64,000 nucleotides of DNA, taken from the NCBI GenBank assembly GCA_963920765.1, contig OY987249.1:8122817-8186816 (forward strand). The letters are read 5' to 3'. The notes below the pieces were generated by a model. The model was not told the DNA's origin. It saw only the letters and a list, made by a program, of their open reading frames with translations, and searched no databases. This stretch comes from Ulota crispa (Eukaryota; Streptophyta; Bryopsida; Orthotrichales; Orthotrichaceae). Each line of letters opens with the position of its first letter. The first letter of the stretch is position 1. A program made the translations under genes and the position numbers. This document shows, one piece after another, positions 15,127 to 63,572 of this stretch.

Positions 15127-15256
15127 CCCTTAAACGTCCTGAACGCCCTATGTGGCCGTATGTCCACCGGCGAAATGCGTTGTTCAGCAGTTTGATTGCA
15201 AGGGTATTTTCAAAAAATACAATCCCATATCTTAGCTCCCAAGGGCCGTTCAGGGG
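15127..15256. mobile_element. TTAA-flanked CCC..GGG element, 130 bp
   Basis: TTAA (15123-15126), then CCCTTAAACGTCCTGAACG ... CCGTTCAGGGG, then TTAA (15257-15260). The CCTGAACG segment is present in both ends in inverted orientation. It belongs to the TTAA group described in the findings. Confidence 0.65.
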
Positions 15257-15318
15257 TTAAATTTGAAAATACATGTTCTTATGGTCTCTCATTCATTTAT
15301 ATATGATGTATTTAATAA

Positions 15319-15738
15319 GGGAATTGATACATGTACCATCCCTTATGAACTATTCTACCACACCCTACTATATATGGTCAGTATTTACAATATTAAAATA
15401 GGTGTGGACCACAAGAAAAACATGACTAATTTGAAAATACAATTGGACATAGAAGTTGCAACTTTAATTTTGTTTTAACTTCAAATCTTGCTCATTGTAT
15501 CAATTAAATAATCCAAATTATGTTTAGTTTAATTTTTACTTTTTTAATTTGATACTATGAGAGGGATTAAGAGCTAAACAACAAATTTAAAGTTGCAACT
15601 TCTACGTCAAGTTGTGATTTCAAATTAGTGATGTTTTTATTGTGGTCCACACCTATGTTAATATTGTAAATATTGACCATATATAGTAGTAGGGTGTAGT
15701 AGAGTAGTCAAGAAGGGACGGTACATGTATCAATTCCC
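15319..15738. mobile_element. Mutator-like foldback MITE with perfect 9-bp target duplication
   Basis: The ends GGGAATTGATACATGTACC and the exact complement at 15720-15738 open arms of about 165 bp that pair over most of their length (for example ACACCCTACTA.TATATGGTCA and AGAAGTTGCAACTTTAAATT). The element is flanked by ATTTAATAA on both sides (15310-15318 and 15739-15747). A 9-bp duplication is characteristic of the Mutator superfamily. Confidence 0.85.
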
Positions 15739-15747
15739 ATTTAATAA

Positions 15748-16640
15748 AGAAATTTTGATGAATGCTCTTGAATTTTGCAATATTTGTAGGGAATCACTAC
15801 CCCAACACCCTAAATTGCTAACATGATACCCCGGTGAGCATGAAATTTGATAATTTAGTGTTATTTTTGATTTATTTGGTCCATCATTCATTCAATCACG
15901 GCATTACGACCTCCTTGAAAGAAAATATGACAAATATAAATTTTTGTTGAAATATTATTGCACCAATACTAAATTTTAATGTATTTTTGCTTTATGTAAC
16001 TCAAAAGTCCTATATTTTTAGTTTTAAATCTAAGCACACTTTTTTTTTTGAGTATAGCCTCAAAATGATAAAATTGAAACAAATCTTTTGATCCAAATAA
16101 AAAAATCAATATTAAAATTCACATTTCATGCTCACAAGGGGTGTCTTGTTAGCAATTTAGGGTGTTGCATTAGCAATTCCCTATTGTATAGATGTTTTTG
16201 GTGCTTTAGAAATTGCACAAATATCCTTGGATCATAATTTTTAGCTAGTTGTTTTATTGTGCATGCCACTTCCTTCTCCCTTGGTATGTAGGTTGTTCTT
16301 TCTTGTTTTGTTGCACTCCCTATTGCAAATGCCACCCTCATAACATGTTGACATAACCTTTGCATCAAAAAATGCATTGACCAACTTGTAAAGTAGCTTC
16401 TATAGGAGCAAGCACAAGAATAGGTTGTGCTTGTATGGGACATGTTGTGACCAATGTTGAAGCAAGGAGTGCAACAAAATAAGAAGCAATGTACACACTA
16501 AGGGAGAAGGAAGTGGCATGCACCACAAAACAAGTGCCTAAAAAATTATGTTTCAAGGCTATTTGTGCAATTTTTAAAAAACAAAGAAAATTTGTACAAA
16601 TATTGCAAAATTCAAAGATATCCATCAAATATTTCCTTCA
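15748..16640. mobile_element. Degenerate family A MITE interrupted by a family C element
   Basis: The outer parts (15748-15788 and 16182-16640) follow the family A layout: TGAATTTTGCAATATT, CACAAATATCCTTGG, CATGCCACTTCCTTCTCCCT, then the inverse set ending GCAAAATTCAAAGATATCCAT. The A unit is broken after GCAATATTTGTA by the family C element and resumes at TAGATG. Confidence 0.65.
15789..16181. mobile_element. Family C MITE (GGGAAT..GCTAA ends) nested in family A
   Basis: The left segment GGGAATCACTACCCCAACACCCTAAATTGCTAAC is mirrored by GTTAGCAATTTAGGGTGTTGC...AATTCCC, and GAGCATGAAATTTGA by its complement. The flanks TATTTGTA and TATTGTAT suggest a 7-9 bp duplication. A related copy lies at 52024-52431. 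Confidence 0.65.
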
Positions 16641-19150
16641 TAATGTGGGTTTTGTGCATAAATTTGTGTACATTGTTTTACAATAGTTGTTTCATGACGT
16701 CATTTAATCTAAGATTATCTCCATTTCCTTGCAAAAAATTAAAAATGAAAATAAATATTATGGTGGAATTTGTACTGCTTACCAAAGTAAATATTCTTTT
16801 GCTTCATTTTGCCATTGAAAAGGAGAAAAATGAAACATGAAGGCTTATGAGTCATTTTAAATTTCTATTTAGCTTTAGTTGGTTGGCTTGATTTTTCTCA
16901 ATATTTTGGTATTTCTCTTTATTGCAGTTGTTGCAAAAAATTAACTTGTGATTTGACACTAGCAAGTTAAGTAAAAGACGACATCATCCTTGAAGTGGGG
17001 CATGTTTTTATTTACTTTTATAACCAAGCTTAGTATTTAGTTTCTTCTAGAACAATTTTTACTAGCACTGTTCTTCAACTTTGAGTGGATTTTGTGAAGG
17101 TGGGGTATCAAAACTTTCAATGTTTGCTGTGGGGGAAGGTTTCAATGGCACAAGAGTATCAACATAAAAAAAAAAAAGGCGATATGTTCAATTTATTGGA
17201 TATGAAACTCTTTGATTACAAATTTCAAAACCAGAAAAATCAAAATCTGAAAGACCTATATTTCTCAATCAGCCTTTACATTCAAACTAATTTAGGTTTT
17301 TCAATGCTTTTTCAGTAAAATTTTAGGACATATATTCAAAAAAATCTCATGGTAGTCACTAGCCCTTTTGAATATGCATGTATGAATACGTCACTATACT
17401 TTTGATAGTTTTGATATTTTAATGATGGATAGAATTATCCAATACAATTATGCATTTTCTAAACATAAGCTGCTTACTAATCTAAGATTAATCTAAAGTT
17501 AAAATGTAGTTTTCTTGCTAATATTGCATTTGATTTGATTTGGCAACTTGCTCTTAAAATAAAATCCTATGTTGTATGGAAAGGTTTTAGTTAAATCTAA
17601 AATTTGAAACAATCATTGAAGTGACATGCTACTCTGAGAGCAACATTCACTTTTTGATAAGGTTATTGTTTCAAATTTGCCTATAATGAGAAATAGTAAA
17701 TAATGATAATAATGAGAAGAATAGACGTCATAATTTATTGCATGTGGAATTTGCAAAGTTCACAAATAATAATCCAAAATTATCTTTTGATAGATACAAG
17801 CAAAGAATTGGGAGATCTCTTGATATTTCACCTAAAATTACAAAAATCTCCAAACATTTTGTAGAGTGCACAATGATATGCGTAATCCATAATTACATAA
17901 ATGGTTCATATTTTGTTAAGTTGAACATGGCATATAATTACAGTTATTCATTCATTTTTTTGATAATAAAAAGTATATAAGTTAATTATATATTTTGAGC
18001 AGTATGGAAAAGAATGTTGAGGTTCCAAAATCGTTCCACACCATTCACTTGGTTGTTTTCTTTGATAAAGAAGAGAAAATTAGAAACAATCCTTTTATTA
18101 AGGGCAAGAAGTCCTAACTCCTAAAGACTAATCAAATTCATCGTTACATTCAAAGGCTAATTTATCAAATTCTAAAAATTAGCAAATTTACTTAATAAGT
18201 CATTTATTGGTTGAGAGTTTTAAAACCTCTCAATAAGATTATTGTCTATCCTTCAACAATTATTTATGAGATGATTCATATTTCACAAGCACATAAGTGA
18301 ACATCAAAGATGTAAAACAAAGATATAAAATTTGCGATAAATTGCTAAATGCGTGTAAAGTTGATTCCGTTTATGGTGAGTTAAGTATGAAATAATGAAT
18401 TAATCAGTTTGTCCCACCATCATGAAGTTTTCATATCGTCTTTGTTTCTGAAGGAATTTATGCAACAAAACTAACTATTATAGACAAGAAATTTGATTCC
18501 TTGAATTGTTGTAAAAGCAAGTGCATGCGCGAGTTGTTTTTAATCAATTCTTATGTGATCTTGCAAGTCACACTACAAACTTATATGCGAATACCTTATT
18601 TGTGGAATAATACAAAAATACCATTTCCTAATCAAACTTGAACCCCTTGAGTGATATGAGTCCATGGAGGAAATCTTCACGCTCATTTGTAAACGGCTGA
18701 CATTTACTCTGTATCTACTAATCTCTTAATTTGTACTATAAATATATGTGTTTATTAAATCAAATGTAAGACACAAATGGATGATTATTTAAGCTCTAGG
18801 CTTCATTAGGTCCCTTTTAGCTATTTAATTGTAGTAATCGTTAGCGCAAACCCCTCATGAATTCAAGTAATTCAGTGATTTACAAAAAATTATGACATTG
18901 GTGTTCACAAATTAAGTACACAAATCAATAACAAATAAAGGGATAAGGTTGGATGTTCACTAACCAATCATAGATGAAGTTAGGGATACTACCTTCAAAA
19001 TGGACCTTTCTATTACTTTGAGTTTACATGCATAGGGATTAATCTTTGAACTCTCAATAAATTGCATTTAATTGATTTCACTTTTGGTTGCTTTTTATTT
19101 GTAGCTAAGATTTATTTATTTGTTTTTTTTTTCATTCATCCAAGCATTGT
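16641..19150. other. AT-rich intergenic DNA, no gene recognised
   Basis: There are only short open frames and homopolymer A runs (such as 17167-17178). Neither a protein family nor a clear terminal repeat is visible. Confidence 0.45.
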
Positions 19151-19153
19151 TTA

Positions 19154-20061
19154 CCCCTTAGGGCCGGAGAAGGCAGAAATTGCTTTCTTAGGTTCTAAAA
19201 TGAAATTTAGGGTGTGCTACCAATTTTGGATCATGGGTTGACCAATTACAAACATGTAAGGAATGAAGTTTATTTTCACGCGCACTTGTTTGATCAAAGT
19301 TTGGAATTACAACTTGTTGTAGAGAGAGTGATTCATCAGAAGGGGTATCGGAAAATTTGAGTGTTTAGTACATATCACTCACTAAAACACCAACAAGAGG
19401 ATGATGTCACTTGATGTCTTTAGGGACCAAGAAAATAGTGCCATGACAGCAACCAACCCAATTATTCTTTGGCTTTGTACCCCTTACTTGAGCTTCTTAG
19501 TCCTTTTAGCATTGCACAATCAAAATCACTTATATATTGTCACACTTCTTTTGAAAAAACACATGGTCGTAGATCAATAGTATTCAAAGAACTTCTCCAA
19601 TTGGATTTTCTAACCATGCAAATGTCATTTTTCTAAAAATGATCAAAATTTCATGATCTTTTCTACAGATTCTCCACCCTAACCACCCATGCCTTTCCTT
19701 CATTGAATACAACAAATGGTACGACTTTTTCCCAAAATCCTAAGTTCAAGCCCTTCAACATATCAAATATAAGAAAAGTGCACAATTTCAAAATCTAATT
19801 CTATAGTAGTTGCTTGTAGGAGCCATTCATTCAACTTGTATTGTCCAAACTTAATCCAGTGCACCACCTTTCACTTAACCGATGCAGCACGTATCATAAG
19901 CAGATAAGTCCAAAAAAATTATGTGCTTATCTTGCAAGACTGCAGTTTCCATTGGTACAATTGGATTGTGCTTTTTACATCCAACTTAATTGCTAAAAAA
20001 CTTGAAGCATTTTGCTTTTCCAAAAAAACAACCAGCTTGGAAAGCAAGCGGCCCTAAAGGG
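19154..20061. mobile_element. Probable TTAA-type element, about 0.9 kb, eroded left target
   Basis: The left end CCCCTTAGGGCCGGAGAAGG follows TTTA (a one-base change from TTAA). The right end ...GCGGCCCTAAAGGG is followed by TTAA. CCCTTAGGGCCG and CGGCCCTAAAGGG are inverted copies. Confidence 0.5.
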
Positions 20062-22904: not shown

Positions 22905-23252
22905 ACAATTTAGATTTTCAGTTGTACCATTGATATTTGTCACGATTTTTTGTATCTTTGCAAAGAGTGGGCTAAGCCGGTTGATTGAGAATTGATGGTG
23001 ATTTGATCTTGTAGATTGTAGAGTTGTTCCCATGGCTGCTAAAATTAGCTTTGCTCCTTGTGTGCTACTTAAATTAGGGTCTCTTGAGTTTCTGAATTCA
23101 GTTGCTTTAAGTTCAAAACTTGTTTGTTGATTGCTAGTTTGCTTTTGTTTCCATATTTTATTTTTGTTTGTAACTACCTTTGTGTTTTGAGAGGGATGGG
23201 CTCTAGCTAGGATGGGGCAAGAGAAGTTGAGAAACTGATCTGCAATTCTGGG

Positions 23253-25980
23253 GTGGAATTGGAGGAGGAACTTGGTCATGTAGATCTTTCTGATGTTACA
23301 GAGGTTGGGCTTGATGTATTGCATGAATTCGTGGAGCTTTTGCCTGTAGTGCTTGAAGTGAAAGGAAAGACACTTGGAAAGAAGCCAAAGTCTGTTCTTG
23401 GTAATTCCTTAAAGAGGTATTTTTGCAATAGCTGTAATGCAGACAATTTTGGCACATTGTGGATGCCAAAGAAGACAAACACAACTTCTTCTGAGGTGTT
23501 GATTCCATCTTCATTGATTGCAAGTTCATCATCCAACAACTCGACAAATAAACTACTGCCCTTAGCTTTACCACCAAGTAATGTGGCTATGAAGTTGGTT
23601 TGTCCAGGAGGCCTACCTGACTTGGCTCCACCTCCAAAAGAATTAGAAGAGGTAAGCTTTCAAGATTCTTGTTTTCTATATCTCTATTTTTAAGCTTTTG
23701 AATGATTGTTTACTGCAAGGCCCAGGAACTAATGTTTCATGTTTGTGGATGCTGGCAGGTGATCAATCTTGATGTAGAAGATGAGCCTGCAAAAAAGAAA
23801 AAGAAAAAAGCTATGAAAGTCATTGCAAGTTTCAAGATTCTTGGGCTGCTAAAATCCCATGGGCAGAGATGATTGTTGGAGCCGATGGAGAGTACCATAG
23901 TGTCAAGTGCATCATTTGCTCTGTAGTTACAGGATGTGTGAAGCTACTTGCACCTAAGCTCAATACTATCTCAAAGTATGCTGGTCGTTGCAAAGCCAAG
24001 AAAGATCTACTGCACCTGGGAGTCAAAGAAGGAGACTTTTATGTTTTAGAGAACTACAAGCATGCTGCCAACACGAGGCTTTACAAAACAAGGAGTAAGG
24101 ATTCTATGGAATTGCTTGTTGTCAAAAGGATGAAGAATGAGAGACAAAGAAAACAATTTCAGTTTGCTCTGATTTTCCATTTGCTAGCCCAAGGTTGTCC
24201 TATGCTTGAATACAAAGCATGTCTATCTCTGTTCAAGTTTTTGCTTCTCCCTGGGCTGCCAAAGTTGCACTGGTCTAGTAGTGCAAGTTGGGAAATTGCA
24301 AATGCTATGTTAAAGTAGGTTCTAAAATAAAACTGGGTTGTCATGCAGTCTTCTAAATTTCTATCTATATCTTGTGACAAAGTAACAACCATAGATAACC
24401 AGTCTTGGATCTCAATCCATGTCTATTATGTCAGTAAGTGGTGTCAGGTTCCTTTATTGGTTGGGTTAGAGCAAGTTGATATTTCACCCAGTGCAGTGAA
24501 TCTCACTAATATTCCGATTTCCAATCTTGAGAAGTCAGGGGGACTTTTTGAAGAGCAAGTTGGTAGAATGTTGGTATTGTTTGGGGCAGATGGGGCTTCA
24601 GTGTTTCAGGGGATAAGGAATAGGGTTACAAAGAAAATCCAAGAGTCTATTGCTCCTTTTTTAGAGGGTGTTCACTGCATGGCTCACCGTACCAACTTAG
24701 CTATTGCTTACTTAAGCAAACTCCCTGTTGTGTGTGAAATTGAGTCTCTTTTGTCAAGCTTACACAAGTACTTTAGCCATTCACCAAAAAAACAAGCCGA
24801 GTTTGTCAAGCTTGCAGCATTGATGCAGACCAAGGGCAATAAGATTCAACGGAACATTAAAATCCGTTGGATCTCAATGTTGGGTCTAGCCTAAAGAGTT
24901 ATTGACAAGTATAAGACCTTGATCATGAAGATGGCAGAGAATGCCTTCAAGCACAAGGATGCTAAGTTCAACAAGGAGCTATTACGCAATGTACAAGTTG
25001 TTCTTGGCTTGACGTGCTTACTTCCTTTGCTTGTTGCTGTTCATTCTTTGATTAACTTTGCCCAAGGACAAGATGTCTATGTGTGTGACTATGTAGCAGC
25101 AATCAAACAGTGTCAATTGCAGCTCTACAAGCTTTATCTTGATCCAGCTACTAAGTTTGACACGACTACTTTTTGGGACTTCACCTTAATACTTGACTAT
25201 GTATATCCCACCATTTTTGTAAGGTAGCAGGCTCCAGACTTGGTTCTGAATGACACAAATGTTGAACACCTTGCTTTTTTTACCAAAGCCGACTCTTGGT
25301 GGGCTACTCATCCTCATCCAATCATAGGGAAATCAGAGATGGTGGCAAGGGAGATTTTGGCTTCCATTGTTGAAGCTGTAAAAACTTCATGTATTGGTGC
25401 TGCTCAAGCTTTGATGAAGGAGTTAACAGGCCATTTTCCAGCATCTACATTGATGAATGCATTTTGTTTCTGTTACCCGCAGTACTGGTTGTAGAAAGAG
25501 AGTTCTACTAAGCTTGATCCGGAAACAACATTTCCTATGCATTTGGGGATTGTAAAAGCTTAGTATGCTATGGACTGTGAAGTAAAGGATTCATCTGGGC
25601 TTGTAAAGGTTGTCCCTGTATTGTTATCCTCTCGAACCTTAGACATGCAGTTTTCTCTTTTCAAAGTAACTATGCAGTCTAATGCAGCTGCAGCTTTGCA
25701 ACAGCCTTTTGATACAAACCCATTTACTCAAATTTGGAGATTAGTCACTGCAAATATTCTCTTTAGGAGGGAGCTATCAAAGTATATCAAACTTGCAAAA
25801 ATTGCCGCAGTGCAAGTCCTTGGTAGCGTTGAAGATGAGAGAATGTTTTCCACATTGAACTTCATGAAGACAAAGCTCCAAAATCGACTTCAAGACCACT
25901 TGCCAACAGTCGTTGGGATGTATTCCCAGAGTTATTTTACTATACAAAATTTCCCATATGATTCCACCTTTGATGACTAG
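23253..25980 (+). pseudogene. Decayed hAT-family transposase
   Basis: The first exon-like frame (23253-23648) ends at a GTAAGC donor and can be joined to an acceptor at about 23758. After a one-base frameshift near 23830 a single frame runs to 25980. It is broken by in-frame stops at about 24316, 24328, 24892, 25225, 25492 and 25561. Visible features are a BED/TTF-like zinc-finger region (KCIICS...HLG), the central HCMAHRTNLAI segment of a zinc-finger-protein-type hAT transposase, and the C-terminal hATC dimerisation block SVEDERMFSTLNFMKTKLQN. A hAT transposase moves DNA by cut and paste. This copy cannot encode an active enzyme. Neighbouring hAT-like MITEs may have been mobilised by relatives. 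Terminal repeats of the full element could not be assigned. Confidence 0.85.
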
Positions 25981-26697: not shown

Positions 26698-27003
26698 ACA
26701 CCCATAAGCGTCAGTGTCCTCATAACCGTCACCTTTGAAATCTTGGAAAATCTGTGGAAGTGAATAGATGTAATGACAAGGATGTGCAACATGTGAACAT
26801 GAAATCTTAAAAGTGGTTATGGGTGCAATGGCAATTTGCTGTTTATATATTCACAACTTATTCTCACATTATCCAAATAATACATTCAAAAGTGCAAACT
26901 TATATTTTCTGTTCCTAATAGTATCCTATAATTTGCTAGCTGCTTATTGATACTCATCATGTTCAAAACCCTTAATTTGACGCTTATGGGTGCACATACC
27001 TTA
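26698..27003. mobile_element. Family D MITE copy
   Basis: TAAGGTATGTACACCCATAA at the left is inverted at the right as TTATGGGTGCACATACCTTA. The interior CTTGGAAAATCTGTGGAAGT matches the SRP54 intron copy at 11116-11448. Confidence 0.75.
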
Positions 27004-27044: not shown

Positions 27045-27786
27045 CCCCTTAACTCGTGAGCGCCCAACCGTTTCCACCAAAATTAGGGTTTTGAGAGACC
27101 TACAACTTTGATGTATTGTATCCAAGTCAAATAGATGATCCACAAAAAGTATTTATTGATAATAGTGAAAGACCTACTTAGAAAACAACTTGCAAATTTT
27201 GGGAACAATTGATTGTGGGAGATGGGGAGATTATAACATATGATCAAACAACATATGATGACAAAATCTCATTTTTTGATAGGTAGTTGATTCTTATAAG
27301 CCCTTGATTCATCTCAATTTTGGTGAGTAGCAAGATTAGATGTGAATGAACACACCTACAAATTATTGAAGATTGCAATCCTTTACATGTGAAGTATTAG
27401 GGCTTCAAATTACTATTGCACAAACAACAATGACTAACACAAACGGTCAAGGTTACCTTAATAAGGGTTTAGAACAAATTTGAACCCTTACCAACAAATT
27501 TACGGCTACCACAAAGCACACACAAGGAAGCTTGCAAGGGATATTGATAAGATGCAATTTATAAAATGTTGTTTGCCACCATGCCCCATATGGTGTTTCG
27601 CCCAATCAAATCTCTTGAGGCACTTGTACAACATTTGGCTTGCCTTGCCATTAGTCCATTAGCATGAACAACTTGAATACCTTCATAATTATAGTTTATA
27701 GCAAGATCAAAAAATTAGATTGAGTGCCTCAAACAAGCATTTGAAATCATGTGAGGACACATTTGGTCCTCTAGGGCGTTCAGGGG
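27045..27786. mobile_element. TTAA-type element, 0.74 kb (uninterrupted relative of 62606-63572)
   Basis: The left end CCCCTTAACTCGTGAGCGCCC follows GTAA (TTAA with one change). The right end GGGCGTTCAGGGG is followed by TTAA. The interior (CTACAACTTTGATG, GATTGTGGGAGATG) is homologous to 62606-63572, but it lacks that copy's internal insertion. Confidence 0.65.
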
Positions 27787-28488: not shown

Positions 28489-28729
28489 TCCCTGAGCACC
28501 CCACATGCTAGAATGTGGTCTCTTCATATTTGACAATTTGTTGTTTTTGACTGTTATAACTTTTTAATCCATGCAACGAAAACTTACCAAATTTTTCATA
28601 CATATGCAAACTCTAAACCTTGAGCAATATTAATGGCTAACTTGTCCAGATGTTGTTTTTGAATTTGTGATGCCAAATTGTTTGCAATGAAGTTTAACAT
28701 TGCACAAATTTGGGCTGGGTGCTCAAGGG
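28489..28729. mobile_element. TTAA-type element sharing a TTAA with its neighbour
   Basis: TTAA (28485-28488), TCCCTGAGCACCC ... GGGTGCTCAAGGG, TTAA (28730-28733). The same TTAA is the left target of the next element. Confidence 0.65.
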
Positions 28730-28733
28730 TTAA

Positions 28734-29378
28734 CCCCTCACCGCCCAAGGGGCCCAAATTGGGCTTCTTTGAATTTTATTCAGGGATGTTCAACCTTTCT
28801 ACAAGATTTTTTTAGTGATTATTATTATTTTTAAACTCTTATTGAAATCTAGTTTCAGCATCAAGAGTCTGATTTTGAAAATGAATTAAAGTGATTTGTC
28901 TATTCAAGATTTTGTGCAAGGGTGTCCATTGCAGATCTTCACTTTCTAGTGTTGAAGGCTCTTGGAAATGAGCTTCAAGTACACTAAAACTTGGAGAAAA
29001 AATCACATTAAAAATTCTATTTAAAAAGTTATAAAATAGATTTTGAGAAGCTGTAAATTGAATGGGGTTAAGCATGTTAAACTTTACATACTCATATTTT
29101 TTTGGTACCCTCAATTTTAGGTTTGAGATGCAAAAAGAGGATTGAAAGGCTTCAAATCACTTTTGCAATTTTAGCACCCTCATGATCAAATATTATAACC
29201 TTTGAATCCATAAGTGATATAGTTGTGATCTCTTTTCTTATATGATCTATAACATGTCTACCTTAAATTCGTACGATTATATTTCAAAGAAATATAATAA
29301 GATTGATCAAAATGTTGGCATTTTGTTCACTTTCAAGCAAATTCTGAGATACTCCAAAATTCCAGGGGCGTTGAGGGG
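28734..29378. mobile_element. TTAA-type element, 645 bp, uninterrupted relative of 49585-51163
   Basis: TTAA then CCCCTCACCGCCC at the left, and GGGGCGTTGAGGGG then TTAA (29379-29382) at the right. The interior matches the 49.6-51.2 kb element: GTGTCCATTGCAGATCTTC, AATCACTTTTGCAATTTTAG, CATAAGTGATAT. It preserves the empty site TTTTAGCACCCTC, where that copy carries an insertion. Confidence 0.75.
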
Positions 29379-29382: not shown

Positions 29383-30219
29383 ACCAAACATGGAGCACTC
29401 AAGGGGCATTTTAGGAATTATTCAAAAAAGGCTTGTAAGAAAATAAGGGAAGAAGTACCCACAACATGATTGCCAACTCCTCTCCCCCTCAATAATCAAC
29501 CTCAACTCGATGCCCACCAGTCAACTCCGACTAAAACCCGCACCCAATCGCAACCCCTCCACGTGGCACGAAGACCTGGCGCCCCTCGCTTCCGCCCTTG
29601 CCTTCACTTTCCGGCACCTTTCCCTCCGACGCGGCCATACCACTGCCTACCTCCGCTCCGCACTCGCCCCGTCGTCGTCGCCGTCGCTCCCCCCGCAAAA
29701 ATCAAAGCGTTCGCCGCAACAAACGCACGATCTGCCTTCACCACCGATCACTCACCACCTGTGCCACCAACCCACGTTGCAATTCTCGAGTCACTTAGTC
29801 GGAGAGCAAGCCCAGCTTCGGCTCATCAAAACCTCACTTGCATCCTCTCCTCACCGAGATTTGGATCTGGGGTTTCGACGCGTGAATTCGCGCTTTGGAG
29901 GGCAGGATTCCAGCTCCAGGAAATCGAAATACCTTCACTTCAGAGGCGGAATTCGAGATTGTGTCGAGATTGTGACGAGATTGTGTGGCGAGATTGTGTC
30001 GAGATTGGGGTGAGATTGTGGCGAGATTGGGGTGAGATTGTGTGACGAGATTGGGGTGAGAGTGTGGAGAGATTGGGGTGAGATTGTGTGGGGATGAGGG
30101 GGTAGGGGGAGAAGCAAGGAGATGGATGATTCGAGGTTGGGTGCCGCGGGAGTGTATGGAGACGGAGGCGCGACCCGAGTGAGGAGGAGAGGGAGCGTGT
30201 GAGTTTTTTTTTTGAGGCA
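29383..30219 (+). promoter_or_regulatory. Presumed promoter and leader of the sucrose transporter
   Basis: From about 29470 the DNA becomes GC-rich with CGTCGTCGTCG runs, ending in a purine-rich tandem array and a T10 run just before the start codon. Open frames here are low-complexity; I read them as leader, not protein. Confidence 0.45.
29955..30090. repeat. GAGATTG(T/G)G minisatellite in the transporter leader
   Basis: About eleven GAGATTG cores are spaced 10-13 bp apart (GAGATTGTGTC, GAGATTGGGGT, GAGATTGTGGC), all on the + strand and G-rich. Confidence 0.85.
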
Positions 30220-32016
30220 ATGGCAGGGGAGTACCAATTAGCTACTCTGGCAGCTGCGGTGGACGTGGAGGAAGAGGCATCGTCACGGTCGTCGCCGTCG
30301 GCGTTGTCATCGTCGGCGTCGTTTGCGAATGGAGATCGGAAGCTGGGGCCGTCTGAGTATGACGAAAGGCCGGCGTTGTCGTCGTCGTCGCCACGACAAT
30401 TAGGGTTATGGAAGCTGGCGCTGTCGTCGATGGTGGCAGCGGGGGTACAATTCGGGTGGGCGTTGCAGCTGTCGCTGTTGACGCCCTACATTCAAATGCT
30501 AGGCATCGAGCATGCGTTCTCGTCCTTCATCTGGCTATGCGGGCCGATCACGGGGCTAGTGGTGCAACCCTTCATCGGAATGTGGAGCGACCAATGCACG
30601 TCCAAGTGGGGGCGGAGGCGCCCGTTCATCGGCACGGGCGTAGGCCTAATCATGCTCGCCGTGATTGTGATCGGCTTCGCCGCCGACGTCGGCTACCTCC
30701 TGGGCGACTCACACGAGGATTGCGCCGTCTTCAAAGGCGCGCGCCCGCGCGCGGCCTTTGTGTTCATTCTAGGGTTTTGGCTTCTCGACCTGGCGAACAA
30801 CACCGTGCAAGGCCCCGCGCGCGCGCTTCTCGCGGACCTCGCCGGACCCGACCAACGCGACGCCGCCAACGCCATCTTCTGCCTCTGGATGGCGCTCGGG
30901 AACATCCTCGGCTTCTCCGCGGGGGCGTATGGCAACTGGTACAAGCTCTTCCCGGCGCTCACCAGCACCGCCTGCTGCGCGCCGTGTGCTAATCTCAAGG
31001 CGGCGTTTCTGCTCGCCATCGTCTTCCTCGCCGTCTGCACTGTCGTCACCATGGTCGCCGCGCAGGAATCCACCCTCTCGCTCGTCGTCACGCCACCAAC
31101 TGAAATGCTCCCCATCGACGATCCTCATGCCAAACCGCATGACGACTCCGCTCCATTACTCCAACAGCCCAACGGCAAGTCTCACGATCTGGCTATGGTG
31201 TCGGTGGACTTGGATTACCCGAACGGACATCACACGCATGACGAGACCATCCTTCACGTCGACAACCATCCCGACTCGCCACACATCGACCACAGCTTAG
31301 GATCCAGCATGGTGAACCTCCTGCTCGGAGTTCGCAAGCTTCCAGAATCCATGAAATTCGTCCTGCTGGTGATGGCGCTCTGCTGGTTATCATGGTTCCC
31401 GTTCTTCCTCTTCGACACGGATTGGATGGGGCGCGAGGTGTTCCATGGCGACCCCACCGGCACTCCGGATCAAGTGGTATCGTATCAACGTGGCGTGCAA
31501 GAGGGCGCATTTGGGCTGCTTCTGAACTCCGTTGTCTTAGGAATCAGCTCGTTGTTTATCGACGTGCTCTCTCAGAAACTGGGTTCCAAAAATCTCTGGG
31601 CAATTGGGAACTTTATTGTTTTCGTCGCCATGGCGAGCACGGGGGTCATCACGCGGCACCGCGCCGGCGGTGCCGGCGGCAGCCGCATCGCGGCCGTGGT
31701 GCTGTTCACCATCCTGGGTTTTCCTTTGGCCATCACTTACAGCGTCCCGTATTCCGTCACTGCTGAGCTCACGGCTGAGTCTGGTGGTGGCCAGGGCCTG
31801 GCTATGGGGATACTTAACCTTGCTGTTGTTGTGCCGCAAACTGTCATCGCCCTTGGAGCTGGTCCCTGGGATGAGCTTTTTGGCGGCGGCAACGAGCCCG
31901 CGTTTGGGTTTGCGTCTGTGTCTGCTCTCGCCGCTGGTGTTATTGCGGTTTGGAAGCTCCCCGCCATGGCTCGCCATGGCTACCGACCTGCTACCATCAT
32001 GCATGGCCCGCATTGA
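30220..32016 (+). CDS. SUT: Sucrose/H+ symporter (SUT/SUC, GPH family), intronless, 598 aa
   Basis: Plant SUTs are 12-helix carriers that import sucrose with a proton across the plasma membrane or tonoplast. The first helix carries the family signature GVQFGWALQLSLLTPYIQ, followed by FIWLCGPITGLVVQPFIG and the loop SKWGRRRPFI. ARALLADLAGPDQRDAANAI and ALGNILGFSAGAYGNW lie in the N half; VVVPQTVIALGAGPWDELFG lies near the end. A long His/Asp-rich central loop falls at about 275-350. The N-terminus is Ser-rich, and the whole chain is somewhat longer than usual (about 500-600 aa). The start is ATG 30220; an in-frame GTG at 30199 is not needed. The gene is a single GC-rich exon, unlike the split genes around it, whereas most seed-plant SUT genes have introns. 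Subgroup (SUT4-like or other) cannot be fixed by eye. Confidence 0.95.
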   Translation: MAGEYQLATLAAAVDVEEEASSRSSPSALSSSASFANGDRKLGPSEYDERPALSSSSPRQLGLWKLALSSMVAAGVQFGWALQLSLLTPYIQMLGIEHAFSSFIWLCGPITGLVVQPFIGMWSDQCTSKWGRRRPFIGTGVGLIMLAVIVIGFAADVGYLLGDSHEDCAVFKGARPRAAFVFILGFWLLDLANNTVQGPARALLADLAGPDQRDAANAIFCLWMALGNILGFSAGAYGNWYKLFPALTSTACCAPCANLKAAFLLAIVFLAVCTVVTMVAAQESTLSLVVTPPTEMLPIDDPHAKPHDDSAPLLQQPNGKSHDLAMVSVDLDYPNGHHTHDETILHVDNHPDSPHIDHSLGSSMVNLLLGVRKLPESMKFVLLVMALCWLSWFPFFLFDTDWMGREVFHGDPTGTPDQVVSYQRGVQEGAFGLLLNSVVLGISSLFIDVLSQKLGSKNLWAIGNFIVFVAMASTGVITRHRAGGAGGSRIAAVVLFTILGFPLAITYSVPYSVTAELTAESGGGQGLAMGILNLAVVVPQTVIALGAGPWDELFGGGNEPAFGFASVSALAAGVIAVWKLPAMARHGYRPATIMHGPH

Positions 32017-33269: not shown

Positions 33270-33565
33270 CCCTCAAATTACCATATCTTGCATGTCCTAA
33301 CACCACCCACCCACCCCACTGTATAACAAAGAACCTCTAGTCCCAAGCATATTAGTTTAGAGTTCTACTGTAGTATGTATGCTGTCGTATAATTGGAATT
33401 TGCTATCAACAAGAGATTTCAATAGCTCACTGGAATTGCATTGATCTATTCTTCAACTTCTTTGTTGATCTAAAATGTAGTACAATAAAGGTGTGAATCC
33501 ATTCCATATACAAGAAAATTCCTTGTATTGTATTGGTCACACTGACACGCTCAAATATTTAAGGG
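33270..33565. mobile_element. TTAA-type element, about 0.3 kb
   Basis: TTAA (33266-33269), CCCTCAAATTACC ... CAAATATTTAAGGG, TTAA (33566-33569). The interior (CTTTGTTGATCT, AAGGTGTGAATC, AATACAAGAAAA) is homologous to 37127-37360. Confidence 0.6.
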
Positions 33566-34392: not shown

Positions 34393-34463
34393 CCCTTAAA
34401 TGCTGGAGGCACCAAATTCCAGTGGTTTTTACACTAGAATTTGGTGCCTCAAGCATTTAAGGG
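34393..34463. mobile_element. 71-bp TTAA-flanked palindromic mini-element
   Basis: TTAA (34389-34392), then arms of about 32 bp, CCCTTAAATGCTGGAGGCAC... and its complement with two mismatches, then TTAA (34464-34467). Almost nothing lies between the arms. Confidence 0.8.
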
Positions 34464-37126: not shown

Positions 37127-37360
37127 CCCTTAAATGACCCTAGAGCATAGTATATACAGAGCCCTATGATTGGCATTTGCTACCAATAAGAAGTTTTAAT
37201 TTAGGATCTCAAGTAGCTCACTAGAACTGCTTTGATCTATTCTCCTTTGTTGATCTCAAATGTGGTAAAGGTGTGAATCTAATTCAAATACAAGAAAAAC
37301 ACTCCAAGAAAAACACTCCATATTGTGTTGGTTGCAACGGCACTCTCATTTGTTTAGGGG
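37127..37360. mobile_element. TTAA-type element with eroded right end
   Basis: The left end TTAA-CCCTTAAATGACCC is intact; the right end reads ATTTGTTTAGGGGG without TTAA. The interior matches 33270-33565. Confidence 0.5.
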
Positions 37361-38207: not shown

Positions 38208-42540
<4,333 letters not shown>

Positions 42541-49584: not shown

Positions 49585-51163
49585 CCCCTAGATGCCCAAG
49601 GCACCCAATTTGGGTGTTTGCAAAACTTTGAAGACAAATAAATTCTCATCAAACCATTATTTTTGGTATTTTTTTTTGAACACAGGTTTGCTTTGAAGTC
49701 TATTTTCAATATCAAAAATCTGATTTTGAAATTGAATGTTCAAGATTTTTCTATTAAAGATTTTGTACAAGGGTGTCCATTGCAATCTTGAGTTTTCTAG
49801 TGTAGGAAGATCTTGAAAATGAGCCTCAAATACACTAGAGCTTGGAGAAAAATTTGCATTAGAAATCCATTTAAAATATATATAAGAGTAGATTTTGAAA
49901 GCCATAAATTGGTTGAGGTTAAACATGTAATGACCTTAAACCTCATATTTTTTTGATGACCAACTTTTAGATTTGACATATGAAATGAGGATTAGAAAAC
50001 TTCAAGTCACTTTTGCAATTTTAACCCTTAAATTTTTCATCAGCCCAAATTGAGTCAATTGGTTTTTAGCAATGCCATTTATGACCTTAGGAATGTGAAG
50101 AGTCACTTGAACTTTGACTCATATGAAAGATAAACAAGTTAGCTATGTAGGGGTGTTTTCAAATTTAGAACAAGAGTCACCATTGAATTTACAGAAATTT
50201 TCAAACCATGGGTGGTCTTGGATTTATAGTGTTAAATTTTGGCCCTAGATTTGTGAAAGTCTTCAATTTTACTCACAGTTTTTGAAATTTAAGGGTAAAG
50301 TGGTCACTATTGCAAGACCATTTACTCACTCATTTTTTATCCTAAAAATACAAGACCTATTTCTATGCATGTGGAACTTGATTACCTTGAGAATGAGCGT
50401 AAGATGCCAACTTTTTAAAATGTTATGTGTCCAAAAGAGCCAATCAAAGCACAGTTTCAACTACTCCAAAACATTGGTTTCCTTGTAGTACCATTTATCA
50501 ATCAAACCCTTGGATTGAAACCAAACTTTGCAGAGATGATAAGGACTTGGCTTTCTATATGATCTTACAGGTACTTTAGCTTAAAAATGACTCATCATTC
50601 TTTAAGCTTCACCCTTTCATAACTTATAGAATTGAGGTCCAAAACACCTTCAAAATGGCTGAAAAATTTAAGGGTTAACACCCTCATGTTCAAATGTTAT
50701 AATCTTTCAAACTATAAGTGATATTGTTGTGTTTTCTTTTTCTATGTAATCTCTAACATGTCAAGTTTAAATTTGTACTATTACAATTTTAAAAATTGAT
50801 GAGATTTATGAAAAGGTTGGTTGATTGTTCACTTTCCTAGAAATGCCACATTACAAGGGATTTAGACCCAAGCATGGGCCACTTCCTCCGAAACTATGGG
50901 AACTTTGGAAATGTTTCCACAACACTTCCACATAGGCAATTTGGAGCAATATGACATGGCATTAGGGTGACCACGTCAGAATTTCTTATTTTATTAATTT
51001 TTTGGAAAAAACTTTTATTTTTTATTTTTTTACTTTTTTTAATATTTTTCTGACAACCAACAATGACTGGTTCCCACCATCGAGAACATCCAAACTCATA
51101 GCCCTTTCTTGGGTCCAAATCCTTTGTAATGAGAAGTTCAGAAAGACCTTGGGCATTTAGGGG
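49585..51163. mobile_element. TTAA-type element, interrupted by a second TTAA-type element
   Basis: TTAA (49581-49584), CCCCTAGATGCCCAAGG ... CCTTGGGCATTTAGGGG, TTAA (51164-51167): 16-bp near-perfect terminal repeats. The interior is homologous to 28734-29378. Outer length without the insert is about 0.93 kb. Confidence 0.8.
50025..50674. mobile_element. Nested TTAA-type element, 650 bp
   Basis: TTAA (50021-50024), CCCTTAAATTTTTCA ... TGAAAAATTTAAGGG, TTAA (50675-50678): 14-15 bp exact terminal repeats. The host sequence reads GCAATT-TTAA before it and TTAA-CACCCTC after it; the uninterrupted relative at 28734-29378 reads GCAATT-TTAG-CACCCTC. Confidence 0.85.
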
Positions 51164-51167
51164 TTAA

Positions 51168-56443: not shown

Positions 56444-59400
56444 ATGGAGGCGGCGTGTGAGTTCTGCGGCGACAGTCGTGCGACGGTGTACTGTCGCGCG
56501 GACTCGGCCCGGCTCTGCCTTCCTTGCGACAGGCACGTCCATGGCGCTAACGCCTTGGCGCAGCGACACCCGCGCACGCTGCTCTGCCACGCCTGCAACG
56601 CCAGGCCGGCGGCGCTGCGGTGCCCGTCGTGCCATTCGTCTTTGTGCCAAGCGTGTGACGTGGAGAGACATGAGTCTGGGATGGGGACGGAGGTGCACAA
56701 GCGCCATGGCTTCGAATGTTTCACTGGATGCCCGTCTGCCATGGAACTGGCGACGTTGTGGGCGTGCGAGGACAGTGATCCTCATAAGCTTGCGAGGTCG
56801 GTGTCGACTGCTGGTGGAGGAGCCTCCATGTCTGGCCCTGGGCCTCCGCCTCAGCCCTTGAAGGTACCACCATTTTGCCAACCACACTTGCAAGCACTCT
56901 AAGGGCCGCTCGACATTATGGCCGATCAAGTTGAGAGGCAATGGGATTGAGTGGCCAAAATTTGTTAATAGTGGCCAAATTTTGTTAAGAGGCCAAGAAA
57001 ATCTGTTGAAAATATGTAGTAAATGTTTAAATTGATGATCTCTCAACCATAGTTTGGGTCTCCATTTTTTTTGGACCCAAACTTCCCTATGAGAGGCTGT
57101 CGTTTTGGATGATGAAGTACTGCTGGCAGTTTGGTGGATGGCGGACTTTGGACTTTGGCCTCAAGTGTAAAGGGTCAAGAGGCCGAACTCTTGGTTTCCT
57201 GCAATTTGATTGGTGGAGAGCTATAACCTCATGACATTTGGCAATAGTGTGAAGTGGCCTAATACAGAACACTGGAAATGAGAAGGAGAAGAAAAACGAA
57301 GGGTTTGATAACAATGACGCTGTACACGAGACATTAACGATAACGCTCAATTTTAGAAATAAACAGAGATTCTGCTATGGGCTTGTATTTAGAATCATCT
57401 TTACCCTCCCCTTAACCAGCATTCAATTCGTGATAGAAATTTTTTAAAGCTCTGCTAAGAACCGCTAGTGAGTTCCATAGAAGAATGTTTATCTTAACCC
57501 TTCAAGGATGTTGCTTACTAAATGTGTTGGTTATACTCATACGAGGACCATTTAGTACTTGAAGAAATGGTTTTATAATAAATGCTAAAAATTCTCCAGA
57601 AAATCCTAGTTGAGTTGACCAGGAGTATGTCTGTGACTTGGCTTTGAATTTACAACTCCAATGGGATTTATGTGCTACTACCCAAGTGCCCCATCCATAT
57701 ATAACACGGGAAAGCGTATACAAAAGAGCACCATCCTTCCTAAAGGGGTTGATAATGGTTATATAGATAGAAATCTTGTTTTGAATTGGCATTTTCTTTG
57801 TCTTTTCTCGCAAATTCCACTCGAGGGAACTCTAGCGAGGTTTCTGCATACCTCATGTGTAGAAAACTGTGAGAATTTTTGTGAGATTAGGTTGGTTTTC
57901 TCTTTCAAAGAATGTAAGATTTTGCCAAACGCCTGAGAGAATTCAAGTGTCCGTAGAATTTGAAATTTTTAATTTTACTCCATTACTTGATCACTGATCG
58001 AAGGGTCGAGGGTCATACCTTTAGTGAAACCTTTCCTATAAGAGAGAGAATACCGTCAGATCCAGAGCTTTGGTCGTAACATGACGTGTAACTCAATTTG
58101 GTACTTGCGTGGAGAAGGGATACTCCATGGTATGGATGAGATAGAGAGAGACAGTTGGATACGAACTTAAGTCTCGTTGTTTCGAGGGTGTACCATATTA
58201 GGTAAATTGGAAAAAATAGTACATTCTGAGACTTTTACTATTTCTGCTATTTTGTATATATTAGCATATCACAAAAAAAACAACTGTGCATTTTCTTGTA
58301 CAACAATGAAGTCTCAGTGATTTCCTCTAAGAACTTCAATCATTATAACTTTTGAGCAATAGCTATGCCAACATTGAATGATGTGGGATTAAGGTGGAGT
58401 ACAAGATGGTCCCTTTGTTTTTCCCAATTTACCTAATATGGTGCAGTATTAGAAAAGTCAGGTTTTTATTACAAGCTGGGTGATACTAAATATTGGTTTT
58501 ACTTTGGTTTTCAGAAAGCAATAGCTGCTACTACAGCAGACTTGGGTAGGCAGAATGTGCAAGGGCACGAGAGGGCAGTGTTCAAGCAACTGGAGAAACT
58601 GCAAGCTCAGGATCCAACACGCATTGTGATAACTTCAACGTTACCAGTTCTGCCTATGAAGTCACAGCCGGTGGTGCATGCCCCTGAGCCTGCAGTACAA
58701 AGCTCCCGTCCTGTGGAGGATCCCAGGTTGGCTGAAGCGCAAGCGCAAGTTGTCAAGGTGGAGATTCAAGCTGATGGCGCTCTGACCCAGGGCAGCACAG
58801 ATGTATTCTGGCGTAACAATTCTGCTAGCCAGGCTCCTCAGGTACGGCAGCTCCGACGCGTTATTCATTGAATTAGGAAAAAGCGTACGTATTGGGACTT
58901 TTTCATTTGTCATTTTTAAGAGCTTTTAGGTGATGTAGAGTGAATCCTATGATGGTTTCTTCAAGACCTTACATCAATGATGAAATACCTTCCAAGAATG
59001 AAAAAAAAACTCACTTCAAATCACCAAAATATTCTCACAACTACAAAATTTAGTATTTCTAGAATATGTTTTGGGAAAAAGTTTTTCCCAATTTAATGAA
59101 TAATGCTTTCTCGCTTTTACTTTCTGCAATGTAAGTCCTTTCTGAAACACATTATTGCAACCACTTTTTCACATACTTTTTTCACATGTCTTTGTAATAA
59201 AAGCAAGGGAAAATTTCATGAATACCCCTTGAAGTTTGCAATATTTACATAGATACCCCTGCTTTTTCAGAAGTTACACAAATACCCTTGGACCGTAATT
59301 TTTAGGCGTTTGTTTTGTTGTGCTATATGTATGTGATTAATCAATTTGACCCCAATCACAGATTCACCTCACACCTCCCGTGCCTGATATGAAGGAGGCC

Positions 59401-61721
59401 ATGTTTGCTCTGTAGGGAAAATTTTGATCTCACGGGTTTTGCAAAATGTTCCTTCGTATCTTATAATGTATTTCTATATTAGAAATCAAGCAGCTAATTG
59501 TTAGTGTCTCCATCTCCTCCAAAGGAGAATAGTATAATTTTCATACCATATATTTATTTCGGGATATTAGTTAGTTTTTGAGAGGTCCAAGAATGGCACT
59601 ATTTCTACAATTCATGAATACAAATTTCCTTCGTTTGAATTTAGTGGTGTTTACAAAAATGCTCGTTTGGTGACTGATGTAGTGAGGGTTTGGATGACCA
59701 GGTGTGGGGGCAGGCCATGCAGGACATAGGAATGTGTGACGATGAGGAGCGTGATTTGTGTTCTGGCTTTAACATGGCTGGCGTGAACCTGTCTTTCGAC
59801 AACTACGAGGACATCTTTGCTAGCACTCAAGCTCCTGCTTCTCTGGATCAAGATGGAGCTGTTGCTGCTGACCTGGAACGGTCTCTCATGCAAGGCGTTC
59901 CGGAGGCTGAGCTTTTCAAACCTCTCAATGTACCTTTTTCACTTTTCTGCACATTGCTTTTTATCTTACCTTGAACCTCCGTTGGAGCCCATATATGTAT
60001 ATATGCTTAATTTATTATTGAACGTAAAGAGCATGTTTGTACCTCGGAGTATCGTCCATTTTGCTCTTTTAGACCCTTGATTAGACTAGAGAATGTTTGG
60101 AAGCTGGGCATTTTCAAACGTAATGCGAAGTCATTTGTACTGTACAGATTGGCATGTTTAACTAACTTTACATTGTACAAAGTCCAGAAATCAATTATCG
60201 AACAAAATGGTTTTGGAGAGACATGTAAAATATTGGGAGATTTCTTGATAATTTGCTACACTGGAAGAAAAATGTATCCTAAACAATTGGTTCATAACAG
60301 TTACAAATGTGTCAAACAACTATGTAATGACTCAATTACAGTTGTTTAGGACATTTGCAATTGTTTAGGGATCAGTTCTTTGTTGCACGCTTTTTTCTTC
60401 TGGTGCTTGAACATTGGGAGGTCTCTTAATGTTGTGCCATCTAGAATCAAATCTCTAGTCTAAAATTCTATTAGTGAACCAAAATTAGTAAAATCTTGCT
60501 ATCTAGATGTTTGCTTTGTAAACCTTGTTGGAAGAGTCAATGAGGTGGTGATATAGTTGCCTTGAACACCATGTGGTCTTTTTGCATAACTATTTCGGCA
60601 TTTGTTTGTAAGGTAGTGACTTGTCATGCAAAGTAAGAATGTTATTCATCTAATATTTGTTTTGTTTTTTTTTTGGTATTTGTCAGCAGGATAATGATCA
60701 AGCTAACTTCCACGGCCAGTTAGTGGGACTGGAGTTGGGTCCTGGTCCAGTGGAGGGAGAGGCTCACCGTTCGGGGAGAGCTGGGCTGGATGAAATGGAC
60801 ATGAGCAACATGGATGTGGCGTTTGCACCAAAACAGGAGGACCCAAGCTTGACGTCATTGCCAAGGTCTGTTGTCAGTGGGGAGAATAGTGACTACGTGG
60901 AAGGGAGTGTAGCGTCTACCGTGCGGCACTCTCCCGGTGGAGATGCCTCTCTGGGCTCTGGCAGTTTCGACAGTGTTTCTTTTGCTCAAGCTCGTGATTC
61001 TGCTATGCTTCGCTACAAAGAAAAGAAGAAAATCCGCAGGTTCGAATAATTTCTTCTTTCTTTTAATGTATTATTCAATGGGTTTTTCCATATGAAGCTG
61101 GCAGGCTGAGCTGTGTAAATCACCCACTTTCTAGTTGTCTAAATCCTTGTTTGTGACTTGGTTTTGTTGTCTCGTTCTTTCAACCTTTTGTTGCATATTT
61201 GTGTTTTTGACAAAAATTTGATTACTAGTTCTAGACCAACGAGTTGGTGTCTATTGAAAGTGAGCCACACGTTGGCAAGCTTTTATGCGAGAAATTGGTT
61301 ATGGGAAATGAATGTTATGTAGAGAGTTTACCTCCTTTGAGAAGGAGGTACTAAAGGTAACACTTGGTATTTTGTAATTATGCGGTGTAATTAGTAGAAC
61401 TACTCCCCTAACAAACTCTTCTGTCATATTAGGAATATGATGTAAGTTTGGTCCATGCATGGTGGTTTAAGTTATAGAGGGTTGAAGACTTGGTCGTTTA
61501 CTAAGTACGAGTATATGGTGAGTCAGAAAAGTATCAGTTATTTTATTTGAAAGGTGTTTGACCTTTTTTTTGTGTGATTTTTTGGGAACAGGTTTGGCAA
61601 GAAGATTCGTTATGAGTCACGCAAAGCCCGGGCTGATATTCGCAAGAGAGTGAAGGGAAGGTTTGTGAAAGTGGGTCAAGCATACGATTATGACCCAGAG
61701 ATGCAGCCTTGGGGTATGTAA
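56444..61721 (+). CDS. COL: CONSTANS-like transcription regulator, two B-boxes and CCT domain, 5 exons, about 484 aa
   Basis: Coding exons are 56444-56863, 58515-58841, 59702-59929 (or from 59687), 60690-61039 and 61592-61721; the phases close to a TAA. B-box 1 (residues 5-47) reads [20 protein letters not shown]...; B-box 2 (48-90) starts [16 protein letters not shown]. After the B-boxes comes [20 protein letters not shown], as in the COL9-15 type (group III). The C-terminal CCT domain reads [20 protein letters not shown] then [20 protein letters not shown]. Such proteins bind DNA with NF-Y partners through CCT and act in light, clock or flowering control. In B-box 2 the aspartate ligand position is a cysteine. 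The CCT domain is split between the last two exons. The acceptor of exon 3 is uncertain (two in-frame choices), and the 3' end may be spliced differently (see findings). Confidence 0.9.
56902..57260. mobile_element. hAT-like MITE in intron 1 of the CONSTANS-like gene
   Basis: AGGGCCGCTCGACATTATGG..GATCAAGTTGAGAGGCAAT at the left and TTTGGCAATAGTGTGAAGTGGCCT at the right. It is related to 22014-22904, including ATTGAGTGGCCAAA and CAATTTGATTGGTGGA. Confidence 0.7.
58191..58444. mobile_element. Family F MITE in intron 1 of the CONSTANS-like gene
   Basis: TACCATATTAGGTAAATTGG at the left and CCAATTTACCTAATATGGTG at the right: an almost perfect 20-bp terminal repeat. It matches 22495-22743 along its length. 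Confidence 0.8.
59210..59325. mobile_element. Truncated family A MITE in intron 2 of the CONSTANS-like gene
   Basis: Only the left arm is present: GGGAAAATTTCATGAATACC, CTTTTTCAGAAGTTACACAA and TAGGCGTTTGTTTTGTTGTG, then it breaks off before the hairpin turn. Confidence 0.75.
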
Positions 61722-62601
61722 AAAAAAAACTCACGAATTTGTTTCTTGAACCTTTCAAAAATTGCAACTTAAATTATCATTTGAGTTTTTTTTTTAGTAT
61801 TTAAAATGCGTTAAATTTTCTTTCTGCGATGGAAATTTTTTGTTTTCTTCTTTTTAGATTGGCATTTTAAAGCGACCACTGCTATGCTGGTTGGTTATTT
61901 TCTGCTGGCTGCTGTAGTGAGTTGGGTTGCCAAAGTAGGGTTTTTAGGGGAGCTTTATGTCGTGAAATCATGGTTGAATTGAGGAGTAGGGGGTTTGTTT
62001 TGGTTACCATTACCAAAACCTTGTACAGTTATAGTGGTTTCTAACGAGATTTGTAGACAGAAGCCATGCCTCTCATTGGCGCTGGTGCTTCCTTCCTTTT
62101 TTTTAGTCAATAGATGGCTGACAGCACATCAGCTGCAGATATTTCATGTGCACATGTGCAATTCTTTTTGATTTTATGACTTTGGAAAAAAATTCTATGA
62201 CGACATTCTACCATTCTTTCACTTGATGTATAGTCTTTTATTGATCTTTGTGTTTATAAAAATTTGAAATGTAGCGCCGAGTGTGTGTGCAGTTGTGTAG
62301 TGCCCTCCAACAAGTTCTTGGATTTCTTGAAACTCAGCTAGACAGCGACTAAGTTACTGGTGAAGAATGGCAATTGAACACTTCAAAATCAATAGTCTCA
62401 AAAGTTATATGCTAGCAATTTGGAGTCATATATCTACAAATTATATTAATGGCAAAAACATTAGCTAGGCTATGGAACTTGCTTTTGTTTGACAAATTTG
62501 AAATATCTAATTGAGTTTCAATGAACTTGAAAACTTGTTGGAGAGCATTTTATGTGCCATGGTTTTGCCTTTTGTAAACTCCATGGTATTATATATCTTT
62601 G
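61722..62601 (+). other. 3' region of the CONSTANS-like gene
   Basis: It includes a possible alternative last exon (61859-61982). No other gene was recognised. Confidence 0.45.
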
Positions 62602-62605
62602 TTAG

Positions 62606-63572
62606 CCCCTACGCGTCCAAGTCATTGTCATCAAAATTAAGATTTTGGGTGATCTACAACTTTGATGCATCATATCTAAGTCAATTAGATGCTCTACAAA
62701 AAAGTGACCATTGAAAATTGTGAAACATCTATTTCAAAAATGGCTTGCAAATTTTGAGGATAGTTGATTGTGGGAGATGAGAGGTTAACCTTGAACGTCA
62801 CATGGGCTTTGGAGATATAGTACCAAATATGGTCGTAACCAGTATTTAGAAGTTTGAATCAGCTAGAAATTAAGTGTTACAACCATATATATTGCAGGGT
62901 TGTATGATGGGGGGTGCATAAAAATAATTGGAAAGCCTTCAGAACTGCTCAAATATGTCTGTATACACGGTTGTATGTACGGCCGCAAAGGGCTTTGGTG
63001 TTGTTCAAGGGTTAAACATTTGATCAAACTACATGAGATGGTAAAATCTCTTTTTTTTGGCATTTAGTTGCTATTTATTAACTTTTACAAAATTTTATAA
63101 GCCCTTGGTTCATCTCAAATTATGTGAGTAGCAAGATTGGATGTAAATGTATACACTTGCAAATTATTGAAGATTGTACTTCTTTGGGATGTTAAGTTTT
63201 AGACAAAATGTTATTGCATGGAAAATGATGATTGGCACAATTGGTGAGAGTTGCCACAATAAGGGTGTAGAACATGCTTGAACCCTTGTTGACAAATTTT
63301 CTGCTACCACAAAGCACATGCAAAGAAGCTTGCAAGGGGTAATGACTGGTTGCAACTTGGAAGTTACTACTTGCCACCTTGTCTTGTATGGTGTTCCACT
63401 CAATTGGGGCTCTTGAGGCTTTTCAACCTTTGACTTGCCTTGCCATTACTCCACTTGCATGGACCACTTGAATGCCTTGATAATTGTAATTTATAACAAG
63501 ATCAAAAAACTAGATTCAATGCCTCAAAGAGGCATGTGGAATCATGTAATGACACTTTTAGTCTTCTTGGGT
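62606..63572. mobile_element. TTAA-type element, interrupted copy
   Basis: The left end CCCCTACGCGTCC follows TTAG (one change from TTAA). The right end is shortened (CTTGGGTG then TTAA). The interior is homologous to 27045-27786 (CTACAACTTTGATG, TTGATTGTGGGAGATG, CACAAAGCACA.GCAA.GAAGCTTGCAAGG). Confidence 0.6.
62789..63011. mobile_element. Nested TTAA-type element, 223 bp
   Basis: TTAA (62785-62788), CCTTGAACGTCACATGGGCTTT ... AAAGGGCTTTGGTGTTGTTCAAGGG, TTAA (63012-63015). The uninterrupted relative at 27045-27786 reads GAGATTATAACATATGATC where this copy reads GAGG-TTAA-[insert]-TTAA-ACATTTGATC. Confidence 0.7.

Follow-up and report, generated by a model that had tools for sequence, protein, structure and literature searches.

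Within the window, by which we mean the entire 64,000-nucleotide stretch of Ulota crispa DNA analysed here, twelve stretches are bounded, with varying fidelity, by TTAA and a CCC-type start on the left and by a GGG-type end and TTAA on the right (Table 1). The elements listed in the first-pass annotation are real, but two of them are nested, with 50025-50674 lying inside 49585-51163 and 62789-63011 inside 62606-63572. Ten non-overlapping outer stretches together occupy 5,813 of the 64,000 bases (9.1%).

Table 1. Elements of the window and target-site copies of the two nested insertions.
Positions	Strand	Feature	Basis
15127-15256		130-bp element, TTAA on both sides	ends read, motif
19154-20061	+	908-bp internal-deletion derivative of the L017 transposase-bearing element; left TTAA changed to TTTA	both ends match L017
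27045-27786		742-bp element of an older family; left TTAA changed to GTAA	ends read, genome matches
28489-28729		241-bp element, ends CCCTGAGCACCC / CCCTTGAGCACCC; right TTAA common to the 28734 element	ends read
28734-29378		645-bp element of a large genome-wide family	genome matches, aligned copies
33270-33565		296-bp element, relative of 37127-37360	ends read, comparison
34393-34463		imperfect palindrome of 71 bp (84.5% identity with its reverse complement), flanked by TTAA on both sides	ends read, pairing scan
37127-37360		eroded element of 234 bp without its right TTAA; L022 holds a full-length relative (75%)	ends read, comparison
49585-51163		outer element, 925 bp once the insert and one TTAA copy are taken out; its left end is similar to the L012-derived family L057-L060	ends read, junction alignment
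50021-50024		TTAA target-site duplication of the nested 650-bp element, left copy; the right one is at 50675-50678	junction alignment
50025-50674		650-bp element nested in 49585-51163; uninterrupted site in the relative 28734-29378	ends read, junction alignment
62606-63572		eroded 27045-family member, interrupted by 62789-63011	junction alignment, comparison
62785-62788		TTAA target-site duplication of the nested 223-bp element, left copy; the right one is at 63012-63015	junction alignment
62789-63011		223-bp element nested in 62606-63572, TTAA on both sides; relative in L018 (79%)	junction alignment

At least ten elements had been proposed to share a single TTAA-CCC(C/T)T plan, and the core of that proposal stands. 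In the window, TTAACCCYTNANNG is found 11 times; 100 dinucleotide shuffles gave a mean of 0.06 and a maximum of 1. For TTAACCCYT the count is 17, against a mean of 1.39 and a maximum of 4 in the shuffles. Given this excess, the TTAA...CCC/GGG end pattern is genuine and lies well beyond chance. The plan allows more variation than described, with starts of TCCCTGAG at 28489, CCTTGAA at 62789 and CCCTCAA at 33270. With both ends read, TTAA is intact on the left of 9 of the 12 stretches and on the right of 10; the altered left copies belong to 19154 (TTTA), 27045 (GTAA) and 62606 (TTAG). The stretches at 37127-37360 and 62606-63572, described earlier as eroded, end without a clean right TTAA. A strict scan for paired ends, which required TTAACCY at both ends and complementarity in at least 11 of 18 terminal bases, recovered only four pairs in the window, those of 28734, 34393, 49585 and 50025. 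Many terminal repeats are therefore short or worn, and those of the window elements outside the four strict pairs are shorter or eroded.

The interiors had been described as several unrelated or loosely related families. At the sensitivity of our comparison, three pairs are related and no relation was seen among the other window elements. The pairs are 27045 with 62606-63572 (74-75% identity), 28734 with the outer 49585 element (74-79%) and 33270 with 37127 (71%). The window also holds features of other kinds. An uninterrupted open frame of 628 residues at 30130-32016 has MFS matches and by eye resembles a plant sucrose transporter. Four plus-strand open frames at 23785-25980 resemble by eye a broken hAT-type transposase (a SVEDERMFSTLNFMKTKLQNRL stretch), and Pfam gave no match at E 0.01 to the four pieces of these frames. 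A second repeat family, with a unit of about 30 bases (ATACCCCTGAAGTTTGCAATATTTTCATAG) that is partly inverted, lies at 10199-10584, 38881-39214 and 59190-59323.

The nested elements allow the target site to be read against uninterrupted relatives. When its insert is removed, 49585-51163 aligns through the junction with 28734-29378 (GCAATTTTAACACC versus GCAATTTTAGCACC). The same operation on 62606-63572 yields a less clean alignment through the junction with 27045-27786, which there reads ATTATAACA and has a two-base gap beside the site. Both junction alignments thus show a gain, at a TTAA-like site, of the element together with four bases, and the two insertions point to TTAA as the target. 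The 28734 family as a whole has 39 other near-full-length matches at 90-92% identity among the 40 scored of 3,835 candidates. We aligned 21 of its copies, made up of the one in the window and 20 drawn from the 39 closest matches; the sample is not random. TTAA stands at 21 left and 16 right ends, the others being one- or few-base variants, and no common sequence was found outside the TTAA in these 21 copies.

The first-pass annotation placed no transposase for these elements in the window, and we likewise found none there by tblastn with 20 transposase domains (best E 0.13); as a positive control, the same 20 domains matched in 400 of 400 locus pairs, self pairs included. It had also proposed a genome-wide search for DDE_Tnp_1_7 (PF13843) transposases carrying the same ends, and this search was productive. 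With 116 of 528 candidates scored, PF13843 gave at least 120 match rows, some loci contributing two, with a best E of 1.3e-73; 14 control genomes gave none. In-frame stops are absent from only 10 of these 120 rows. The open frame of locus L026 matches Trichoplusia ni piggyBac (PDB 6x67, E 4.1e-20) and piggyBat (PDB 9c0f, E 5.8e-17) in a phmmer search of PDB sequences. Two transposase loci with open frames, L035 and L036, were considered as possible host genes and dropped, as both look frame-shifted by eye.

Twenty transposase loci, picked from the better-scoring or more open ones rather than at random, were compared in detail, with the catalytic residues taken to be those that correspond to T. 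ni piggyBac. The first catalytic aspartate is kept in 19 of 20 loci, and the second in fewer than 17 of 20, with asparagine in L015, L018 and L027. The aspartate of a G-V-D motif is kept in 18 of the 19 loci with a residue there, and that of the D-Q that follows it in 17 of 19. L026, which is free of stops, has asparagine at the third catalytic position. Across the loci the catalytic aspartates are thus present, with single copies frequently broken. By eye, L021, L025 and L028 have Cys/His-rich tails, and Pfam reported a zinc ribbon in 0 of the 4 C-terminal pieces scanned. Pairwise identity among the 20 transposases is 29-73% (mean 39%), and their tree, as we read it, suggests about six deeply separated groups, the deepest splits being weakly supported. 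Some transposases occur as opposite-orientation pairs whose two copies lie about 15-109 kb from each other and score equally or almost equally (C7:18203169/18223004, C2:36765124/36779670 and C10:676128/785346); these may be inverted duplications or products of assembly. Among 166 pattern matches in IMG/VR viral contigs, tblastn found no relatives (alignment of six transposase pieces).

Do the transposase genes and the window elements share their ends? Terminal-repeat pairing around the 20 loci reached at least 12 of 18 bases in 8, compared with 0.0 for shuffled flanks and a mean of 4.7 when right flanks were swapped between loci; at several loci the best pairs span 6.0-7.7 kb or are absent. 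Such ends are found throughout the genome, so that pairing exceeds that of swapped real flanks only modestly, and we rejected it as proof of the ends of a transposase locus. Given this weak flank-swap result, we relied instead on homology boundaries and on deletion derivatives. Ten locus pairs align over 1,800 bases or more around the transposase; in 4 of them, one homology boundary falls within one base of a TTAACCC end. Three of these boundaries are on the right (L011-L019, L011-L020 and L019-L020, with TTAACCCCTAAA(A/G)G in all three loci) and one is on the left (L014-L018). In the other 6 of the 10 pairs no boundary lies exactly at the motif, and in 0 of 10 do both; for L013-L026 a boundary on one side comes within about ten bases of it.

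The deletion derivatives tie two families to particular transposase-bearing elements. The window element 19154-20061 matches L017 at its positions 1-155 and 402-908 (66% each), the matching parts of L017 flank the PF13843 domain, and the middle is missing. In L017 itself the outer TTAAs are eroded, neither of them being intact. The L012 element measures 5,746 bp including both TTAA copies, with 16 of 18 terminal bases matching. Its first 400 bases served as a probe, for which 40 of 417 candidates were scored. Matches start at base 1 in 34 (itself included) and at base 2 or 3 in 6, and 36 of the 40 end by base 150. All four matches fetched (L057-L060) carry the left 205-278 bases of L012 at 67-71% identity and, after an unmatched stretch, the right-hand L012 part at 80-83%, without the transposase; L058 alone is long enough to reach the right terminus of L012. 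The left end of L057-L060 is common to window element 49585. By these matches, 19154-20061 and L057-L060 are internal-deletion derivatives of transposase-bearing elements, L017 and L012 respectively. Non-autonomous copies were traced to transposase-bearing elements with the same ends for these two families, and most window families were not linked to a particular transposase copy. The best supported transposase-bearing elements are L012, L017, L022 and L028, of about 5.5-5.7 kb.

Across the 274.8 Mb of the genome, 50,697 copies of TTAACCCYTNANNG were counted, and 535 of the reversed pattern. This corresponds to 11.8 per 64 kb, compared with 11 in the window, and the window is therefore typical of the genome. 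Extrapolated from this one window, about 9% of the genome (some 25 Mb) would be piggyBac-derived, in 25,000 or more elements. About 6 of the 21 copies of the 28734 family abut another element by eye, with one TTAA common to both, as 28489-28729 and 28734-29378 do in the window (28727-28736). We considered a special preference for such insertion and dropped it. Ends preceded by ARGGG number 896 of 12,997 genome-wide, about what random choice among TTAAs would give, because by a rough estimate some 6% of the 366 TTAAs in the window border an element.

Taken together, the window stretches are almost certainly non-autonomous DNA transposons of the piggyBac superfamily, moved in trans by piggyBac transposases encoded elsewhere in the moss nuclear genome, as the first-pass annotation had supposed from their ends. 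The non-autonomous forms are MITEs and internal-deletion derivatives. The TTAA target duplication, short terminal inverted repeats beginning CCYT in the window and genome-wide, the PF13843 genes with their homology to known piggyBacs, the deletion derivatives of two elements and the abundance are all observed here. The route of movement may be sketched as follows. Window elements with short CCCYTNANNGCCC-like terminal repeats would be mobilized by transposase that longer elements elsewhere in the genome supply in trans. By analogy with piggyBac biochemistry, the enzyme would bind both element ends, cut with TTAA hairpins, and excise the element without a footprint for joining to a new TTAA. 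Such activity recurred over a long time.

A single TTAA cannot distinguish a TTAA duplication from a TA duplication within it, since TTAA contains both TA and TAA, and Tc1/mariner or PIF/Harbinger elements (TA or TWA duplication) could have come by the outer bases by chance. The genome-wide end survey argues otherwise. TTAACCCYTNANNGCCC was counted 12,997 times, compared with 5 for the reversed control; with any other outer base the pattern was counted 546 times, so that the base beyond TAACCC is T in 12,997 of 13,543 ends (96.0%). These are therefore not TA or TAA duplications with free outer bases. TA or TWA duplications with variable outer bases, which the first-pass annotation had named as the finding that would count against it, were not seen genome-wide, and we give this reading practically no chance. 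Kolobok and Sola3, superfamilies that also duplicate TTAA, might have moved the elements. Against them stands the PF13843 transposase, which is encoded by elements with the ends and subterminal sequence of two non-autonomous families; this largely refutes a Kolobok or Sola3 origin for the L012 and L017 families and makes it highly improbable for the elements as a whole.

The elements had also been described as a burst, and here the earlier account gives way. The 28734 family is tight enough to suggest one recent episode and one transposase, its 21 non-random copies differing on average by 4.1% from the majority sequence and by 7.2% from one another. The 27045 family, however, is far older: among the 40 scored of 2,166 candidates, 39 others match over 640 bases or more at only 77-83% identity, a divergence of 17-23% from the window copy. 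Families of different age imply several waves, and the transposases average the low mutual identity given above. A single recent burst is thus very unlikely; the sequences instead record long-running activity of a diverse set of piggyBac elements, not one event or one enzyme.

Piggybac elements have mostly been studied in animals and are used as an engineering tool. The moss elements share with T. ni piggyBac (PDB 6x67/6x68) the PF13843 DDE domain and the TTAA target, for which TTAA targeting and hairpins are described in PMC7351741. They differ in their distant sequence and in a moss host with thousands of non-autonomous derivatives. Classical piggyBac is 2,472 bp long, compared with about 5.5-5.7 kb for the four best supported moss elements; for animal piggyBacs, PMC10813416 gives lengths of 1.23 to about 9.5 kb. 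PiggyBat (PDB 9c0f) has the same domain, and its alignment also spans the G-V-x-x-x-DQ region, but its host is a mammal and its sequence distant. Animal piggyBacs resemble the moss elements in the TTAA duplication of most and in a CCYT or CCCTT terminal motif (PMC10813416, PMC10175614), CCYT being given as the piggyBac terminal motif in the latter. They differ in their animal hosts, and several of the moss families have a longer motif, CCCYTNANNGCCC, in common.

The literature already places piggyBac in plants. It is said to have been isolated from insects, fungi and plants (PMC10813416), and a plant review includes PiggyBac as a superfamily (PMC10794571). In the fern Ceratopteris, a repeat table has a PiggyBac row with 1,230 copies and 122 kb (PMC6890710), given as 0.00% of that genome, whereas extrapolation yields about 9% for the moss, in which transposases and ends are linked. 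One of the two occurrences of the term in PMC10619864 is the word 'piggybacking'. Among the matches listed, no title or opening of an abstract gave an account of piggyBac transposons in mosses, Repbase and preprints lying outside the scope of this search. The kind of element is already known; what is new, as far as these searches show, is the host and the abundance. We lean, by a modest measure, towards regarding moss genomes as a major undescribed home of piggyBac, with several transposase lineages of ancient separation and at least 25,000 elements making up close to a tenth of 275 Mb, upheld by repeated cycles of deletion-derivative amplification, so that the superfamily would be an important shaper of genomes in a land-plant lineage. 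The moss elements offer material for asking how the superfamily reached plants, by vertical descent or transfer, how plant silencing copes with a footprint-free transposon, and whether plant repeat annotation overlooks a superfamily.

The plastid genes of the assembly make a moss host very likely. The plastid contig (C157) reads by eye in the order rbcL, a tRNA with anticodon CCG, accD. rpoA has no match on this contig and a good match on C2; its absence from the plastid contig is a moss trait. The psaA sequence is closest to PDB 8htu and 6l35, of which 6l35 is tied to the moss Physcomitrella by title and co-occurrence (PMC7884438) and 8htu appears alongside Physcomitrella in PMC10005731. In passing, a second match to the RuBisCO large subunit was noticed in a 964-residue open frame on a small contig (C97:118173-118940); it possibly does not come from the plant itself.
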